In this document: piece after piece, positions 1,770-9,894 of the stretch | How positions within the stretch are numbered: the first letter of the stretch is position 1 | Layout of the letters: every line of letters starts with the position of its first letter | Assembly (NCBI GenBank): GCA_016202645.1 | Contig: JACQOF010000093.1 | Location: 1 to 44,189 of the forward strand | Origin: a bacterium | Lineage (GTDB): Bacteria > Lindowbacteria > 2-12-FULL-62-27 | Direction of reading: 5' to 3' | Length of the DNA stretch: 44,189 bases | Notes under the pieces: generated by a model | Databases searched by the model: none | What the model was told of the DNA's origin: nothing | Seen by the model: the letters and a program-made list of their open reading frames with translations, nothing else | Translations under genes and position numbers: made by a program

Positions 1770-1923
1770 CCTTTTTTAACAACCAGAACAACAGTCACAT
1801 CCAGAGTTTGTAGGGCTGCCCGGTGTATGCCCGTGGTGTGCCCGACGTGTGTCTGACCACGTAGCCGCATTCTTCTCCCAAGTTCGAACCGCAGTGTTCG
1901 AGCAAAAAACGGAGAAGGATGTG

Positions 1924-3285
1924 ATGGTCATGAAAAAGGTTAAGAAAGACGTAGGGCCGTCAGATTTGAAGGGGAGTGAGGCGGAGGTTGGTATCAAGGT
2001 TTGCCAGCCGGGTGTGCTCAAGGGTTTGCCGGTGGATGGACTGCGGTTGCATCCCGCAATCTCGGATATTCCCACGGTGTATGGTGTATCGTGGAAGGAT
2101 TTTCTCGCGGACGTTAAGGAACGCGGGATTCAAGAACCAATCGTCGTCCAGAAAGGCGGCATTCTTCTGGACGGACAACTTCGCTTGAAAGCGGCCAAAG
2201 AAGGCGGATTCAAAACGATTCCTGCACGGATTGTGGATTTGAATCCGGAAGAGCAGGTGCATTACATTTTCACGTCGGCTCTCGGCCGGCGACATCTGAC
2301 GGATGACCAGCGTGCCGTTCTAGCACATTGGTATCGGGAGAGCGTTCTAAGCCCGGAGGCGAAGAAAGACCGTTCAACGAAAGCGAACATGGCCAAGAAG
2401 TATGGGAAGGGGTCATCCCCGACGCCGACATTGGGCAACAAGCAGAAGGTCGATACACGGACTGTGGCCGCCCGGATGTTTGGCATTTCCCGGAAAAAAG
2501 TAGAAAAGGTGTCCGAGTTACCACGTGAACTTCAGCTTGAGGTGCTGAAGGGAAACCTGAAGCTTCATGAGGCGGTTAAGAAGATAGCCGCCCAAAAAAA
2601 GCGTCAGGAGATTGCAAAGTTTGGGAAGGAGGTTCCGGCGGATAAGCGGTGGGACCTCTTTTGTGAAGACTCTATCACGGGAATGGCGGATAAAAAGCGC
2701 TTTCCGGACAACAGTGTTGACCTAGTTTTCAGTGACCCTCCGTATAACAAAGAGGCGATTCCCTGCTACTCGAAGATGATGCAGGAAATCCCGCGTATTC
2801 TGAAACCGGGTGGAAGCCTTGTCGTTTACTACGGGGCGTACTATCTGCCAGAGGTCCTCAACTCGATACGGCCGAAACTGACGTGGTGGTGGCAACTGGC
2901 CATAAAGCTCGATGCAAGCGAGACCATCAAGGGTAAGAGCGTCTTCCAAGGATGGAAGGGATTGCTCTGGTTTTGTAAGGGAGGCATGCCAAAAAAGCAC
3001 CCCGCGATTAATGACATCATCGTGGGTTCCAAGAGGCCGGAGAAGCTCTACCACGTATGGGAGCAGAGCGTCGATGATGCCAAACACGTCATTGAGAAAT
3101 TGACGGATGTTGGCGACATGGTCTTAGACCCTTTTGCGGGTTCTGGAACCTCGCTGATTGCGGCAGTCCAGCTTCATCGCCGGGCCAAGGGATTCGAAAT
3201 TGACCCCAAACATTACGCTGTCGCTCACGGACGTATCCTCAAGGAAACTCAAGAACCGGTGGTTGAAATCGGGACGGCGGCCTGA
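1924..3285 (+). CDS. ParB/sulfiredoxin-like domain fused to a DNA methyltransferase
   Basis: A predicted 453-aa DNA methyltransferase that transfers a methyl group from S-adenosylmethionine to adenine N6 or cytosine N4. The N-terminal part (about 35-115) is a ParB-like nuclease/CTPase fold, with the signature LDGQLRLKAAKEGG. A helical, HTH-like linker follows. The methyltransferase has catalytic motif IV SDPPYN at 270-275 and the SAM-binding motif DPFAGSGTS at 402-410, the motif order of beta-class enzymes. The frame is open from a GTG at 1849, but GGAGAAGG at 1911-1918 favours a start at ATG 1924. No restriction endonuclease lies next to it, so it is a solitary methyltransferase. Such ParB-methylase fusions are common on phages and mobile elements. 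Protection against host restriction or epigenetic control of the element are the likely roles. The target sequence cannot be read from the protein. Confidence 0.85.
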   Translation: MVMKKVKKDVGPSDLKGSEAEVGIKVCQPGVLKGLPVDGLRLHPAISDIPTVYGVSWKDFLADVKERGIQEPIVVQKGGILLDGQLRLKAAKEGGFKTIPARIVDLNPEEQVHYIFTSALGRRHLTDDQRAVLAHWYRESVLSPEAKKDRSTKANMAKKYGKGSSPTPTLGNKQKVDTRTVAARMFGISRKKVEKVSELPRELQLEVLKGNLKLHEAVKKIAAQKKRQEIAKFGKEVPADKRWDLFCEDSITGMADKKRFPDNSVDLVFSDPPYNKEAIPCYSKMMQEIPRILKPGGSLVVYYGAYYLPEVLNSIRPKLTWWWQLAIKLDASETIKGKSVFQGWKGLLWFCKGGMPKKHPAINDIIVGSKRPEKLYHVWEQSVDDAKHVIEKLTDVGDMVLDPFAGSGTSLIAAVQLHRRAKGFEIDPKHYAVAHGRILKETQEPVVEIGTAA

Positions 3286-3287
3286 CT

Positions 3288-3728
3288 GTGAAGTCCCGGG
3301 CGTACAGTACCAAGGAGGTTGGTGATGTTTTTGAGGTGACGAGTATGGATGTGAGGTCGGCGGCTATCTATGCCGCCGACCTCCACGTTGTTATGGCCGA
3401 ACTCGGTATATCCGGCGACCGTCTGGACGAGGGTCAATACAACCGTGTATTGAGTCGGATGGCTGACAAGTGGTTCGAGCGTCGGGCGGGCTTGACTTCG
3501 TCCCCCAGTCTGGCACCTGTTAATGGACGATTGATCAAGGCGAAAGAGGCGGCGGAGCATTTGGGATTGACCATGTCGCAATTTCAAAAGCTGGCCGCAC
3601 GGGGGGAACTGCCGTTTATACCGGTGACCGGTGGCGTGAAAAAGAGGGGGCGCTACCAGCACAAACGGTATCGAATAGAGGATCTGGATCGATGGGTGGT
3701 TGAACGAACGGTGGAGGGGAAGCCATGA
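3288..3728 (+). CDS. excisionase-like helix-turn-helix protein
   Basis: A 146-aa protein whose C-terminal half (about 83-143) matches the HTH_17/excisionase type: LIKAKEAAEHLGLTMSQFQK followed by a basic wing and the closing YRIEDLDRWVVER. This domain binds DNA and in mobile elements often acts as a recombination directionality factor or as a MerR-like regulator. The first 80 residues are not recognised. It starts at GTG 3288, two bases after the methyltransferase stop, and its stop overlaps the integrase start by four bases (ATGA), so the three genes are probably one transcript and the last two are translationally coupled. Pairing with the integrase supports a role in excision or in controlling integrase supply. 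Confidence 0.7.
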   Translation: MKSRAYSTKEVGDVFEVTSMDVRSAAIYAADLHVVMAELGISGDRLDEGQYNRVLSRMADKWFERRAGLTSSPSLAPVNGRLIKAKEAAEHLGLTMSQFQKLAARGELPFIPVTGGVKKRGRYQHKRYRIEDLDRWVVERTVEGKP

Positions 3729-5011
3729 GCAGACTGAAAGGATCCGCCACTAGACCACCTCGGTGGGAGAAGACAGAAATACCGGGTGTGTTTATCGATT
3801 TACAGTCGATAAAGGGGAAGCGTAAACCGACCTACACAATTTTCGTGTCATGGCGTGGGCACCAAGTCGTTCGGTCGGGTTTCCCGACAAAGACGCAAGC
3901 CCGGAACGAATGGACAAATTTACGGGCGGAGATGATGTCGAAGGATGGCATCCTACCGCCAAGAAGGCTGCCCGTAGGGTCATTTGAGAAGATGGTCGTC
4001 GACTTGGTTCAGAAAGGCGATGTTCGAGAGACGAAGTCGAAGACCGGACGGGTTCGGTATTCTGTCTTGTATGCAAACGGTAAGGATTACTCCTTGTTTG
4101 AGTGGTGCCGAGAATTCCTGACCAAGAACAAGAAATTGCATTTTAAGTCCGCTGGGGACGTGGCGGATTTTGCCCGGTGGATGCGGGAAACCGGCCGGAG
4201 CGAGCGGACGCTCCAAATGTGTGTTCGGTTAATCGAGAAAGTATACGGACTGGCAACAACCCGTGGAATATATCCGATCAACCCTGTGGCCGAGGCGAAG
4301 AAGAATCAGGTCGTCATGGCTCGAATTAAAAAGCAGGTGCAGGCCCGGCGCAATCCGGCCATGAGATGTGAAATAAGCCACGACGAAAAGGTCAGAATAA
4401 CGGAGGTGGTTAAAGCCCATCGTGACCCACGGGCGGTTTGGATAGGTCTGAATGTCTGGATGGGGTTACGGCCGTCCGTGTTCAACAAGATTCGATTCGA
4501 AGACTTTGACCTACAGGCGGGAGTCCTGCGTATCCGGCCGGAGATACACAAGAGCAGATTATATAAGGAATCCGGGCAACCCACAGCGTCGTTCTTACCG
4601 CCGGAGGTATATCCACTCTTGGATAATTATCTGATCCGAATCGGGCTACGCCCGGGATTTAAGGACACAAGCGGCAAGCCCGTGGAGGGATTGTTTCTGC
4701 AACGACCAATCGGGTATAGCGCCATGCGTCGCCAATGGCGGCGGATGCTGGAGAAGGCCGGGATAAAAGAATACGTGGCACCGTATGCGGCTCGGTTCAC
4801 GATGATAAACGAGATGCTCTCTGCCGGTGTCCATCTCAAGGATGTGGCAACCCACGCCGGGAATACGCCGGAGACGATCTACAAATATTATGTGAAGCCC
4901 TCGAAGGAAGAGGAAATCCGTGGAATCCCGGACAAGTTGAAGGAGCACCGGGAGCGGAAAATCGATTATACCACCATTATACAAGCCAAAGTGGGTGGCG
5001 TAAGTGTTTGA
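3725..5011 (+). CDS. tyrosine recombinase / integrase
   Basis: A 428-aa site-specific recombinase that would insert and excise the element at the tRNA-Val site directly downstream. The N-terminal part (to about 95) looks like an arm-binding domain, residues ~110-200 like the core-binding SAM-like domain, and the C-terminal half is the catalytic domain. Visible catalytic residues are Arg249 (GLRPSVFNK), Arg357 (PYAARFTMINE), His377 (ATHAGNTPE) and the tyrosine nucleophile, most likely Tyr386 (TIYKYYV). The first position of the usual HxxR box is Tyr354 rather than His, a tolerated variant in some families. Length is normal and the reading frame intact, so the enzyme is probably active. It ends 27 bp before the tRNA fragment, the classic integrase-att arrangement. 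Confidence 0.92.
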   Translation: MSRLKGSATRPPRWEKTEIPGVFIDLQSIKGKRKPTYTIFVSWRGHQVVRSGFPTKTQARNEWTNLRAEMMSKDGILPPRRLPVGSFEKMVVDLVQKGDVRETKSKTGRVRYSVLYANGKDYSLFEWCREFLTKNKKLHFKSAGDVADFARWMRETGRSERTLQMCVRLIEKVYGLATTRGIYPINPVAEAKKNQVVMARIKKQVQARRNPAMRCEISHDEKVRITEVVKAHRDPRAVWIGLNVWMGLRPSVFNKIRFEDFDLQAGVLRIRPEIHKSRLYKESGQPTASFLPPEVYPLLDNYLIRIGLRPGFKDTSGKPVEGLFLQRPIGYSAMRRQWRRMLEKAGIKEYVAPYAARFTMINEMLSAGVHLKDVATHAGNTPETIYKYYVKPSKEEEIRGIPDKLKEHRERKIDYTTIIQAKVGGVSV

Positions 5012-5038
5012 GTTGCAAGGGAAGAAAATGTATGAGTT

Positions 5039-5085
5039 ACTGCTTCACACGCAGGAGGTCCGAGGTTCGAGTCCTCGTGCGCCCA
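5039..5085 (+). other. 3' half of tRNA-Val(CAC): integrative-element attachment site
   Basis: The sequence holds the anticodon arm (ACTGC, loop TTCACAC with anticodon CAC at 5046-5048, then GCAGG), variable loop AGGTC, a perfect T arm (CGAGG-TTCGAGT-CCTCG) and the 3' acceptor strand TGCGCCC with discriminator A. The 5' half is absent: nothing in 5012-5038 matches the GGGCGCA acceptor strand or a D arm, and the first pair of the anticodon stem is an A-G mismatch. So this is not a working tRNA but the duplicated 3' end left by integration, which starts near the anticodon stem. The intact copy should lie at the other end of the element. No CCA follows (CAC instead), matching the tRNA-Leu in this window. 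Confidence 0.85.
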
Positions 5086-5551: not shown

Positions 5552-7315
5552 TTAAAAGATTTCGGTGTGGTCGAAGGCGCGCGCGAGGAGCGTGTTGCGG
5601 TCCGCGCCCGCTTCGGGATAGATCGCGGCGCCCAGTCCGAATTGGATTTTCGGCTCGCGGTCCCGGAAGAGGTCCTCGAGTTTGGCCCGGACCCGCCTCT
5701 GGACCGAGGCGGCGCCGTCCTGGCCGCTCTGCACCAGGATAACGAACGCGGATTTTTCCGGGTCGTATTCGATCCCATCGCCGTCCCGCAGGACCCGCGC
5801 GCTGATCGAGCACCGGATCTGATCGCAGAGGCGCTTGAATTCCCCGGGCGGCGACGCCTCCCGGACTTCCCCCGCGTTGAGGAGCGACAGCGCCAGGACC
5901 GACATCGGCGACCGGGTGCGGACGGCGTCGGCCAGATTTTTCCGGACGAACGCGTGGATCACGACGCCCTCGCCGAATTTCGGCAGGACAAAATGAAACT
6001 TCGTGCCCTTCCCCGGTTTGCTCTCCACCCAGATTTTTCCCTGGTGCATTTCTACAATTTCCTTGCAGATCGCCAGCCCCAGCCCCGTGCCCTTGTGGCC
6101 GTTGGCCGTGTCTGGCCGGTGGACCTGGACGAATTTATTGAAGAGATCCTTGATGTGCTCGGCGTCGATCCCCGGCCCGTCGTCGGCCACCGTGATTTGA
6201 ATGCCGGTGAGTTCCTGCAGGAGCGTGTGCTGAAGAACGCCGCCGACTTCCTGCTGGTCCGCCTCCCTCGCCTGGATCGTCACTTTCCGGCGGGCGAATT
6301 TAAGGGCGTTACTGACGAGATTGGTCATCACCTGGGTTGCCATGTCGAGGTCCGCGTAGACGGCGGGGATATTGCCGGGCACGTCGTTCTGGAGGGTAAT
6401 CCCGCGGTTTTTCGCCGTCATCTCGAAGTCCTGCCGGGCCTGCGCCGCAAGCCCCGCGAGATCGACGCTCTGCCGGTCCATCCGCGCCCTGCCCGATTCG
6501 AGCTTGGAAACGTCCAGCAGATTGTTGGTGATGCGCGCCAGCCGATCGGCGTATTTCGTGAGCATGTCGACGTATCCCGCCTGGGCCTCGGTCAGCGCGC
6601 CGACGACGCCATCTCTCAGGTTGTCGATCGCGCCCGTCATCACCGCGAGCGGCGCGCGAAGTTCATGCGACGCCGTGTTGATAAAATCGTCCTTCATTTT
6701 TTCAACGTGCTTGCGCTTGCCGATTTCGTCCCGGAGCTGGTTGACCATCTTCCGGGAGATCGATTCGCTTGCCGCGAGATTTCTTTTTTGCCGGTCCAGC
6801 TCCGCCGCCAGCCGCCTCCGGTCCAGCGCCCCTCTCAGAACCCGGGACAACGTCCGTTCGGCCGCCTCCTCCTGGAAGAGATAATCGGCCGCCCCCGCCT
6901 CCAGCCACCGCACCGCGTCGGCCTCCTCCGCCGGTCCGCAGAGCACGATCACCGGCGTGCCAGGAGCCGCCGCGCGAATCTGGCCGAGGAGCGCCGCTTC
7001 CGTCCGCCCGTCCGTCCAGATTTCCCAGAGGATCAGACCGAACACAGATCCGGGATCGGCGAGGCGCGCCGCGGCCGCCGCCGCGCCGGACGCGCGTTCA
7101 AAGACAAACTGCAGGACTTGCCCGCCGTGCGCGGACAGAATGGGGTCGACACTGCGCGCGGGACCATCCGGGGAATGGACATGCAGAACCCGCACCGTTC
7201 GCTGATCGGGAATGGAATCCTCGGGCGTCTCCAGAAAGGAAGGCGTTACCGGCGCAACCAATTCGTTCCGGGCCGCCGACAGAATCGGCCCACGTTCTCC
7301 GTGAGTGACATTCAT
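5552..7315 (-). CDS. hybrid sensor histidine kinase with degenerate receiver and degenerate GGDEF-like domains
   Basis: A 587-aa soluble kinase taken from ATG 7315 (a longer frame to 7639 lacks domain support). Residues about 40-165 fold like a receiver, but the phospho-acceptor stretch reads LILWEIWTDG with Glu where Asp is expected. A coiled coil follows, then the dimerisation/phospho-acceptor domain with His217 in ASHELRAPL. The ATPase domain has N box NLVSNALKFA, G1 box VADDGPGID and G2 box GTGLGLAI. The last ~140 residues resemble a GGDEF domain (ending FGLGAAIYPEAGADRNTLLA), but the GGDEF loop is DPEKSAFVI, so it is not expected to make c-di-GMP. Autophosphorylation should work. No partner regulator lies alongside, and the receiver-STAS protein at 16.6 kb is one candidate. 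There is no membrane segment, so it senses a cytoplasmic cue. Confidence 0.88.
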   Translation of the reverse strand: MNVTHGERGPILSAARNELVAPVTPSFLETPEDSIPDQRTVRVLHVHSPDGPARSVDPILSAHGGQVLQFVFERASGAAAAAARLADPGSVFGLILWEIWTDGRTEAALLGQIRAAAPGTPVIVLCGPAEEADAVRWLEAGAADYLFQEEAAERTLSRVLRGALDRRRLAAELDRQKRNLAASESISRKMVNQLRDEIGKRKHVEKMKDDFINTASHELRAPLAVMTGAIDNLRDGVVGALTEAQAGYVDMLTKYADRLARITNNLLDVSKLESGRARMDRQSVDLAGLAAQARQDFEMTAKNRGITLQNDVPGNIPAVYADLDMATQVMTNLVSNALKFARRKVTIQAREADQQEVGGVLQHTLLQELTGIQITVADDGPGIDAEHIKDLFNKFVQVHRPDTANGHKGTGLGLAICKEIVEMHQGKIWVESKPGKGTKFHFVLPKFGEGVVIHAFVRKNLADAVRTRSPMSVLALSLLNAGEVREASPPGEFKRLCDQIRCSISARVLRDGDGIEYDPEKSAFVILVQSGQDGAASVQRRVRAKLEDLFRDREPKIQFGLGAAIYPEAGADRNTLLARAFDHTEIF

Positions 7316-7538
7316 CCCACACTTCCACCCTTGCTCGCACTCACCACCACTCAGCCCCGCCGGCTCCCCCCTCGAAACTTTGAACCAGAACCAGCAGGAG
7401 CGGGACTCTATCAATTTTTGGGGACCGGCGCAACAAATATTTATGCACGCCCGGAACTTTTTTCGTGACAGAATTCCGCCGGGATGCTTTGATAGTTTAC
7501 GAGAAATACAGATTTCATCAACAACAGAGGAGGCTTCC

Positions 7539-7736
7539 ATGGCCAAGAAACTGGAAATGCTGGTGGTGTCGAGCAAGGTGAAGTCACTGCTCAAGAAAGC
7601 CAAGTGCAATACGGCGGGCGACGCGCTGGACGGACTCAATGCGGTGGTTCATTGGTACATCGGCGAGGCGGCAACGCGCGCCAAGGCCAACGGCCGCAAG
7701 ACGGTCCGCAAGCACGATTTTTGCGCCTGCGCCTGA
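7539..7736 (+). CDS. bacterial histone-fold protein
   Basis: A 65-aa basic protein preceded by a very strong Shine-Dalgarno (GAGGAGG, about five bases before ATG 7539). The sequence has the helix-strand loop-helix pattern of a single histone fold: VSSKVKSLLKKAKCN as helix 1, GDALDGLNAVVHWYIGEAAT as the long central helix, then AKANGRKTVRKHDF. The last part is the hallmark R-K-T-V-x-x-x-D loop and helix 3 of archaeal and Bdellovibrio-type histones. Histone-fold proteins of this size are known as major nucleoid proteins in Bdellovibrio. Function here, DNA binding and compaction, is inferred from the fold. The C-terminus ends in the odd cysteine-bearing tail CACA. It is likely monocistronic and strongly expressed; a weak -35-like GTGACA at 7465-7470 lies upstream, but the promoter is not clear. 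There is no signal peptide. Confidence 0.8.
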   Translation: MAKKLEMLVVSSKVKSLLKKAKCNTAGDALDGLNAVVHWYIGEAATRAKANGRKTVRKHDFCACA

Positions 7737-7769: not shown

Positions 7770-9086
7770 TTGCTGACTGAAACTCCGATTCCTCCCGGCA
7801 AGACGGGATTGCCGCTGGTCGGCGAGACGTTGGCCTACCTCGCCAACGGATACGAATTCATCGAGCGGCGCCGTGCGAGGTTTGGGCCGGTTTTCCGAAC
7901 GAACCTTCTCGGGCGGCCGACGGCCGTCATTTCCGGGCCGGACGCCTGCGCATCGTGGATCGATCCCGAAAAGATCCAGCGCGAGGGATCGATGCCGCCG
8001 CACATCCAGGAGATTTTTGGCGGAAGAAGCCTTCCCCTGCTGGACGGGGTGGAACACCGCGAACGGAAATCGCAGGTGCTTGCGGGATTTGGCCGCGATG
8101 CGCTCGAGGGATACCTCCCCCAGCTTGAGGAGGTTACCCGGCGCCTGCTCGACCAGTGGGTAAAAGCGGGGGAGATCGTCGCGGCCGGGGAATTCAAGCG
8201 GCTTGCGATCGAAGGAATCTGCCGGAACGTGATGAGCCTCGAGCCCGGTCCCACGACCGACGCCATCCGCGCGGACTTCTGCGGGCTTGCGGCCGGCATG
8301 ACGGCCCTGCCGATCCCGATTCCCGGTTCCACCTACAGCCGCGCGCTCGCGGCGCGTGGCCGACTGTTTGCCGCGTTTGACGACCTGATCCGGCAACACC
8401 GCGCAAAGCCCCTGAACGACGGCTTGTCGAGGATTCTCGATGCGAAAGTGGAAAACGGGACCGCCATCACCGACGACGCTGCGCGGCTGGAGCTTCACCA
8501 CGTCGTCATCGCGGGATACGTCATCTTCGCGGAGTTCACCGCAACCCTGCTTCATCTGAGCCGGAATCCCGAGGCAGCGGCAAAACTTCGCGAGGAGGTC
8601 CGGCGCGAATCTCCTTCCGGTCCCATCGGGTTCGACGTTCTCCGAAAGATGCCGTACCTTCTTCAGGTCCTGATGGAAGTCAAAAGACTCTGTCCGATCC
8701 TTCCCGCGATTTTCGGCAAGGCAAAGCGCGCTTTCGAATTCAAGGGATACACGATTCCGAAAGGGTGGATGGTCATCTGGGCGATTCGTTCGACCCACCT
8801 CGACCAAGGGATATACCAGGCGCCGGACCGATTCGACCCCGACCGGTTCTCCCCGGGACGCGCGGAACAGAACAAGCACGAACACGCGTTTTCGCCGCAC
8901 GGACCCGGCGCATACGACGGACACAAGTGTCCGGGCACGGACTATGCCACGCTGTTCATGGATGTCCTGACCATACACCTTCTCCGAGACTGTGTGTGGG
9001 ACCTGCCCCCGCAGGACCTCGAGTACAACTGGCGATTGACTCCCCCCGAACCGAAGGACGGCCTCCGCCTGCGGCTTCGCCGGTAA
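7770..9086 (+). CDS. cytochrome P450 with an extended heme-ligand loop
   Basis: A 438-aa soluble P450. The N-terminal part (IPPGKTGLPLVGETLAYL, FGPVFRTNLLGRP) resembles CYP120/CYP26-type proteins. The K-helix ExxR is present (LMEVKRLCPIL) and the PERF-like region reads APDRFDPDRF. The heme-cysteine loop is FSPHGPGAYDGHKCPG with Cys387. It is about six residues longer than the usual FxxGxxxCxG and looks like the loop of CYP152 fatty-acid peroxygenases. The Arg-Pro pair of CYP152 helix I is not seen; that helix reads VIAGYVIFAEFTATLL. The start is taken at TTG 7770 because the frame has no upstream ATG; the ribosome site is weak. No ferredoxin or reductase is nearby. The substrate cannot be told, and a fatty acid or terpenoid are guesses. 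Confidence 0.88.
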   Translation: MLTETPIPPGKTGLPLVGETLAYLANGYEFIERRRARFGPVFRTNLLGRPTAVISGPDACASWIDPEKIQREGSMPPHIQEIFGGRSLPLLDGVEHRERKSQVLAGFGRDALEGYLPQLEEVTRRLLDQWVKAGEIVAAGEFKRLAIEGICRNVMSLEPGPTTDAIRADFCGLAAGMTALPIPIPGSTYSRALAARGRLFAAFDDLIRQHRAKPLNDGLSRILDAKVENGTAITDDAARLELHHVVIAGYVIFAEFTATLLHLSRNPEAAAKLREEVRRESPSGPIGFDVLRKMPYLLQVLMEVKRLCPILPAIFGKAKRAFEFKGYTIPKGWMVIWAIRSTHLDQGIYQAPDRFDPDRFSPGRAEQNKHEHAFSPHGPGAYDGHKCPGTDYATLFMDVLTIHLLRDCVWDLPPQDLEYNWRLTPPEPKDGLRLRLRR

Positions 9087-9181
9087 TGAACATCCCGGCC
9101 GTTTTCAAAAATCTTTCTGAAACACCGGGGCTGGACGCCGGGCTTCTCGGCCAAATTCAAAAGTGGCTGATTGAATATTGA
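9086..9181 (+). CDS. possible 31-aa peptide coupled to the P450 gene
   Basis: A short open frame starts in a TAATG overlap with the P450 stop and encodes 31 residues (ending LLGQIQKWLIEY). The coupling is neat, and the peptide could form an amphipathic helix at its end. It has no known family, no independent ribosome-binding site and is short enough to arise by chance, so it is listed only as a candidate. Confidence 0.2.
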   Translation: MNIPAVFKNLSETPGLDAGLLGQIQKWLIEY

Positions 9182-9205
9182 GAACCCCGCGCCGCATGTA
9201 ACTCC

Positions 9206-9394
9206 ATGAACATTGAAGAGGATTATTCGTTTGATTGCCCGTATTGCATGGACACCAACGTCATTCGCATTGACCCAACGGGTGGGGAAAAGCAACAATT
9301 CGTCCAGGATTGTGAAACTTGTTGCCGGCCCATGGTCATCAAATTTGAGGTGGGCCCGGAATCCATCACTAATTTTTCCGCAGAAAGGGAGTAG
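9206..9394 (+). CDS. CPXCG-motif cysteine-rich small protein
   Basis: A 62-aa protein with CPYC near residue 11 and a second cysteine cluster CETCC around residue 36, followed by RPMVIKFEV. This matches the small CPXCG (Cys_rich_CPXCG) family, which probably binds one zinc ion through paired cysteines; its role is unknown. Length is typical. The start is ATG 9206; the upstream region has no clear Shine-Dalgarno. It is followed after eight bases by the glutathione peroxidase gene, in the same direction, so they may be co-transcribed. A redox link is possible but is only inferred from this neighbour. Confidence 0.8.
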   Translation: MNIEEDYSFDCPYCMDTNVIRIDPTGGEKQQFVQDCETCCRPMVIKFEVGPESITNFSAERE

Positions 9395-9402
9395 ATACGC
9401 TC

Positions 9403-9894
9403 ATGTCCCGATTTTATGAGTTGACTGCCAAAGACATCAACGGGCGGACCGTCCAGTTGTCGAAATACAAAGGCCAAGTCTGTCTCGTCGTGAACCTCGC
9501 CTCCTACTGCGGCTATACGCCCCAGTACGCGGGTCTTCAGAAGTTGTATGACGTGAAAAAGGGTGCGGGTCTGGCCATCCTGGGATTTCCGTGCAACCAG
9601 TTCGCCAAGGAGGAGCCGGGAACGGACGAGGAGATCAAATCGTTTTGCAAATCCAAATACGGCGTCGGCTTTGACCTGTTCTCGAAAATCGACGTCAAGG
9701 GTAAAGATCAATCCCCCGTCTACGATTTTTTGACCGGCACGGACAACCCGTCCGGCGCGCACAAGGTCCGCTGGAATTTCCAGAAATATCTGATCGACCG
9801 AACCGGCCAGATCGTCGAAACCTACGACCCGGAAATCGAACCTTCCGATCCAACCCTGACGGCCGACATCGACAAAGCCCTGGCCGGGAAGTAA
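9403..9894 (+). CDS. glutathione peroxidase family protein (cysteine type)
   Basis: A 163-aa thiol peroxidase of the GPx fold that reduces hydrogen peroxide or lipid hydroperoxides. In bacteria the electron donor is usually thioredoxin. The peroxidatic residue is Cys36 (NLASYCGYT), where animal enzymes use selenocysteine. The FPCNQF motif supplies the conserved Gln and Asn region, and Trp124 (VRWNFQKYL) completes the catalytic set. There is no signal peptide, so it is cytoplasmic. The length is normal. It starts at ATG 9403, with AAAGGGAG about 12 bases upstream, and lies directly after the CPXCG gene. The usual GY(T/S) motif continues as TPQY. Confidence 0.93.
   Translation: MSRFYELTAKDINGRTVQLSKYKGQVCLVVNLASYCGYTPQYAGLQKLYDVKKGAGLAILGFPCNQFAKEEPGTDEEIKSFCKSKYGVGFDLFSKIDVKGKDQSPVYDFLTGTDNPSGAHKVRWNFQKYLIDRTGQIVETYDPEIEPSDPTLTADIDKALAGK

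Follow-up and report, generated by a model that had tools for sequence, protein, structure and literature searches.

Detailed characterisation has, to our knowledge, reached only a couple of bacterial histones. HLp of Leptospira perolatii (PDB 9QT0-9QT2) ends at F63 and has a dimer-dimer network of R49, S52 and N53 with F63, T61 and R55, in a bacterium that lacks HU and other histones (PMC12701072). HBb (Bd0055) of Bdellovibrio (PDB 8CMP, 8FVX, 9EZZ) bends DNA as a dimer and has S and D in place of the R and N residues of the tetramer; HTkC of Thermococcus (PDB 9F2C) is an archaeal face-to-face (FtF) histone. Bacterial dimers lack R48 and N52, both of which FtF histones carry at the dimer-dimer interface (PMC11390915). 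Here we describe a 65-residue histone of Lindowbacteria, which we read, with a probability of roughly 0.8, as an FtF histone of the HLp kind that would act as a general nucleoid packager, a DNA-wrapping tetramer, beside HU and an HBb-type histone.

The window, as we call the whole stretch of 44,189 nt that was analysed, is contig C65 of a 2.9-Mb genome (82% complete, 146 contigs). The gene and its ribosome-binding site are placed as follows:

7539..7736, + strand: FtF histone gene of the tailed subgroup, 65 aa (homology, tree, profile and model)
7526..7533, + strand: ribosome-binding site AGAGGAGG, which contains AGGAGG and lies 5 nt upstream of the start codon

Read from its ATG to its TGA stop on the + strand, 7539-7736 is translated as MAKKLEMLVVSSKVKSLLKKAKCNTAGDALDGLNAVVHWYIGEAATRAKANGRKTVRKHDFCACA. 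The Shine-Dalgarno sequence AGGAGG (7528-7533) ends 5 bases 5' of the ATG, and AGGAGGCTTC is kept upstream in all three Lindowbacteria genera in an alignment of the histone loci. The ribosome site is good, in line with the original prediction, though by itself not exceptional; AGGAGG-N4-9-ATG occurs six times across the window, so the site alone is little proof of a gene. Judged by homology and selection, rather than by the ribosome site, the 65-aa ORF is a genuine, strongly conserved bacterial histone gene. An in-frame GTG start at 7305, which would give 143 aa, was rejected because homology and the conserved Shine-Dalgarno sequence favour 7539. An antisense ORF (5552-7639) was likewise set aside, since its overlap with the histone is confined to its mechanical extension; the kinase in this ORF gives a Pfam match if an ATG near 7315 is taken as its start.

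In a phmmer search of the PDB, the protein matched HLp (9qt0) at 4e-9, HBb at 4e-7 and HTkC at 0.009, and a profile built from 36 relatives gave the same order for the three (2.9e-23, 2e-16 and 1.9e-12, respectively). The AlphaFold monomer model (pLDDT 88) returned the histone fold, with helices at residues 11-20 and 27-50, a short alpha3 and no extra domain in its 65 residues, and was closest to HLp in Foldseek (TM 0.94 when scaled by target length, with an rmsd of 0.7-0.9 A); the TM score was 0.85-0.91 against HBb and 0.90, by target length, against HTkC. Together with the PDB matches and the selection described below, this bears out the single-fold bacterial histone that had been predicted. 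Because HBb and HTkC superpose nearly as well as HLp, we took the fold from the structure and the subclass from individual residues. No match above cutoff to the 65-aa protein was obtained in Pfam, NCBIfam or PHROGs; the below-cutoff scores were 16.3 bits for NCBIfam NF043032 (cutoff 50) and 12.8 for Pfam PF00808 (cutoff 21.4), so automated annotation with these histone models would miss the gene. As these curated archaeal models were not reached, an archaeal nucleosomal histone was dropped as a candidate, and so was a ZZ histone, since the protein has only about 10 residues ahead of alpha1 and the Pfam search showed no ZZ domain. A search of viral contigs with the histone query found no relative, which leaves a phage origin unsupported.

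The model, together with comparison with HLp, whose fold is the same and whose identity in the structural alignment is 45%, places the following elements within the gene:

7566..7598, + strand: helix alpha1 (about residues 10-20), which holds S12, K13, K15 and K19 (model, HLp contacts and conservation)
7617..7688, + strand: helix alpha2, residues 27-50, with tetramer-interface residue R47 (model, HLp comparison and conservation)
7689..7721, + strand: loop l2 and short alpha3, N51-G-R53-K-T-V-R-K-H-D60-F61 (HLp comparison and conservation)
7722..7733, + strand: CACA tail, residues 62-65, past the last HLp residue; direct duplication of TGCGCC

The long helix (residues 27-50 of the model) and the RKTV loop (residues 53-56) on which the original prediction relied are both there. 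In alpha1, S12, K13, K15 and K19 align with the DNA-contact residues S14, K15, K17 and K21 of HLp (PMC12701072), and the three lysines answer to the alpha1-lysine feature of the family (K16 in profile numbering). The FtF residues R48, N52 and R54 of the profile are present as R47, N51 and R53, and the RxTxxxxD motif is present as R53-K-T55-V-R-K-H-D60. Loop l2 and alpha3 thus hold the tetramer residues N51, R53 and F61 and, by alignment, the RD clamp R53-D60. Shifted by two, the HLp network becomes R47, A50, N51, F61, H59 and R53. The R, N, R and F residues agree, whereas S52 is replaced by A50 and T61 by H59. The two proteins have in common the interface (R49/N53/R55/F63 in HLp), the RD clamp, the alpha1 lysines and the loop residues T27/G29 of HLp, but differ at HLp positions 56-57, which are TT in HLp and KT here, and at the C-terminus, where HLp has no tail and the Lindowbacteria histone has CACA. 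HTkC has the same fold and is of the face-to-face tetramer type predicted here, but belongs to the archaeal branch and shows only about 32% identity.

The original prediction had assigned the protein to the Bdellovibrio type, and there are grounds for considering a dimeric histone that bends DNA as HBb does: the similarity to HBb is significant (4e-7, phmmer), the fold is the same in Foldseek, and the RKT motif has K54 as in bacterial dimers. A truncated alpha3 and the RD clamp are also common to HBb and the Lindowbacteria histone. We examined a sample of 134 sequences that included HLp and HBb and excluded HTkC; 91 of them have N as residue 51, and the other 43 have D, E, A or Q. Among the 91 FtF sequences R53 is invariant and residue 47 is R or K; among the 43 dimer-type sequences residue 53 is either K or R and residue 47 is mixed. 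N51 served as the label for assigning the groups and is itself one column of the tree, but the tree also separates FtF from dimer sequences (98/95), and HLp and the Lindowbacteria histone group with the former while HBb lies across the split; the alignment behind this split is short (57 columns), and long branches were flagged. The Lindowbacteria histone carries N51, R47 and R53, where dimer-type sequences have D, E, A or Q at 51; it matches HLp better than HBb by sequence, by profile and by structure, and a separate HBb-type gene is already present in the same genome. A DNA-bending dimer is therefore quite improbable, and by its sequence the protein is a member of the Leptospira-type (HLp) FtF subclass and not of the Bdellovibrio type.

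As an HLp-like FtF histone, the protein would form histone-fold dimers from two chains in head-to-tail arrangement, and two such dimers would join face to face to give a ring-shaped tetramer, the contacts being R47, N51, R53 and F61, which lie where alpha2 ends and in loop l2 and alpha3. By comparison with HLp, the most likely product is a toroidal tetramer wrapping about 60 bp of DNA around a basic rim, which would comprise K13, K15, K19, T25, G27, K54 and T55.

In contrast to Leptospira, the window genome encodes HU as well as a further histone. The FtF histone was present in all three Lindowbacteria genomes examined, at 94-97% identity in the sister genera, and so were HU-family genes and another histone, about 59 aa long, whose copy in the window genome (G000) is the true counterpart of HBb:

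contig C23:12110-12283 of genome G000 (L002:1498-1677), - strand: second histone, HBb-like, 59 aa (homology)

This protein matches HBb at 1.2e-10 and HLp at 4e-5, lacks the FtF residue N51, and is encoded next to a glyS-like gene, with matching surroundings in two genomes. The FtF histone would work alongside HU and a second, DNA-bending histone.

The coding sequence of the FtF histone is under strong constraint, with a dN/dS of 0.03-0.08 and a dS of 0.43-0.72 between Lindowbacteria genera; the HBb-type paralogue evolves much faster (dS 1.6-2.0 by the same method). Between the window genome and genome G001, dS was 0.43 for the histone, 0.79 for EF-Tu, 0.74 for EF-G, 0.72 for S7, 0.95 for HU and 1.24 for the glyS-like gene, the comparison genes being named by eye from their translations and HU by its place. 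The histone value comes from about 45 silent sites and carries an error near 0.1-0.15, so the safe claim is that silent-site constraint is at least as strong as in classic highly expressed genes. Such expression proxies suggest that the FtF histone is abundant.

Upstream of the gene, an alignment of the three loci revealed a further conserved element:

7465..7493, + strand: promoter-like element GTGACA-N17-TTTGAT (three-locus upstream alignment; putative function)

NTGACA-N17-TTTGAT is kept in all three Lindowbacteria loci, the remaining upstream sequence having diverged, and TGACA-N17-TTTGAT occurs once in the whole window. A sigma-70 consensus scan and a terminator scan around the histone gene found nothing; the scanner missed the promoter-like box because its -10 pattern requires an A as the second base. 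The histone is flanked by a sensor kinase and a P450 in the window, by a PIN-like and an esterase-like gene at locus L014, and by ABC proteins at L013 (the genes at the latter two loci named by eye). The FtF histone gene therefore probably has a promoter of its own. An operon joining the histone to the cytochrome P450 gene downstream of it was dropped, because the sister genomes have other genes beside the histone. This gene (7770-9894) has a TTG start 33 bases past the histone stop, has a gene for glutathione peroxidase some way beyond it, and does not adjoin the histone in the sister genomes. Elsewhere in the window, 1849-5085 resembles a mobile element, with a ParB-N/DNA methylase fusion, an HTH excisionase-like gene and a tyrosine integrase (3725-5011); at its end (about 5045-5085) lies a stretch like a 3' tRNA half, as at an attachment site, for which there was no ARAGORN call.

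Transfer or rearrangement of the histone gene within the lineage is possible, and transfer would offer a second reason for the low dS, besides high expression. It could be argued further that the protein is a low-abundance accessory histone, recently gained and spread among Lindowbacteria by transfer, and not a main nucleoid protein: each of the three genomes has different genes around it, and the silent-site divergence of the FtF gene is low, whereas the faster-evolving paralogue keeps matching surroundings in two genomes (glyS-like, by eye). We consider this unlikely, because the FtF histone occurs in all three genomes of the phylum that were examined, its promoter-like box, ribosome site and coding sequence are all constrained, and the three Lindowbacteria sequences form one clade. 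A general packager remains our preferred reading.

The CACA tail pointed out in the original prediction is present and conserved; it is identical in the three genera and is coded by an exact 6-bp duplication of TGCGCC. The nearest relatives outside the phylum (about 59-75% identity), from MAGs labelled Elusimicrobiota, Planctomycetota, Kofleriaceae (Myxococcota) and Bdellovibrionales, have tails of two to five residues. In our sample, 64 of the 91 FtF sequences are tailed and form nearly one clade with a few losses on the tree; in all 64, residue 34 is N and residue 59 is H or Y, and W occupies 39 in most of them. Cysteine accounts for 24 of the 172 tail residues (14%) in these 64 histones, compared with 1.3% in the core, and the tail-cysteine state must change five times on the tree, or four times on a mixture-model tree minus three long rows. 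This excess and the repeated changes indicate that a cysteine tail is not peculiar to one sequence. A clade of FtF sequences from the Planctomycetota search (L102, L104-L109, L113, L116-L119, L121, L122) has a single cysteine in its short tail, usually in final position (HDF-T/I/V-C), and is separate from the CACA tail. Two divergent FtF-type histones from the Elusimicrobiota search, L047 and L048, have the tails CC and YICK, and L048 also has a CKC motif near the N-terminus.

The original prediction that the tail might form disulfides or bind metal can be extended to a redox or metal switch on the DNA-wrapping ring in several FtF lineages, with CxC as its form here: C62 and C64 of facing chains, perhaps with H59, would lock or open the tetramer through disulfides or a metal. 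The tail begins directly after F61, whose HLp equivalent F63 sits in the dimer-dimer network, and such a switch would be consistent with the identity of CACA in three genera and with the enrichment of cysteine over at least four to five state changes. The CxC pair is, however, confined to the Lindowbacteria lineage and is coded by an exact duplication, 13 of the 20 tail-cysteine sequences belong to one Planctomycetota-type clade, so that the counts are not independent, and the tail is modelled with low pLDDT (63 in the last block). The bacterial cytoplasm is usually reducing, which counts against a disulfide role. The other common tail residues are small or hydrophobic (V, A, S, I, M), which makes packing the simpler account; the cysteines, too, may do no more than pack, and a redox- or metal-controlled histone seems to us distinctly improbable. 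CACA would instead be the lineage form of a short C-terminal extension, which begins just beyond the dimer-dimer interface and whose likeliest role is to pack at that site.

With the profile, 160 of 291 Bdellovibrionota, 114 of 392 Planctomycetota and 16 of 282 Myxococcota genomes gave matches at E up to 1e-10, and 56 of 248 Elusimicrobiota genomes at E up to 1e-4; close to the threshold FtF and dimer types are counted together, and the phylum labels are those in the titles of the centre genomes. The earlier statement that such histones are known in few groups thus holds for bacteria overall, but not for Bdellovibrionota and Planctomycetota, where they are common. Eight of these Elusimicrobiota genomes have a strong FtF-type match, and each of the eight has a weaker, dimer-type second match, so two-histone genomes are not unique to Lindowbacteria. 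The phylum is not named in the histone papers cited here, whose supplementary survey tables may already list its sequences or the tailed subgroup.

The C-terminus of a tailed FtF histone cannot use the terminal contacts of HLp, and this applies to a subgroup found in at least five phyla. In each examined genome of this uncultured phylum, a histone of the presumed DNA-wrapping type, one of the presumed DNA-bending type and HU occur together, which makes Lindowbacteria a natural setting for asking how two histone modes share one chromosome.
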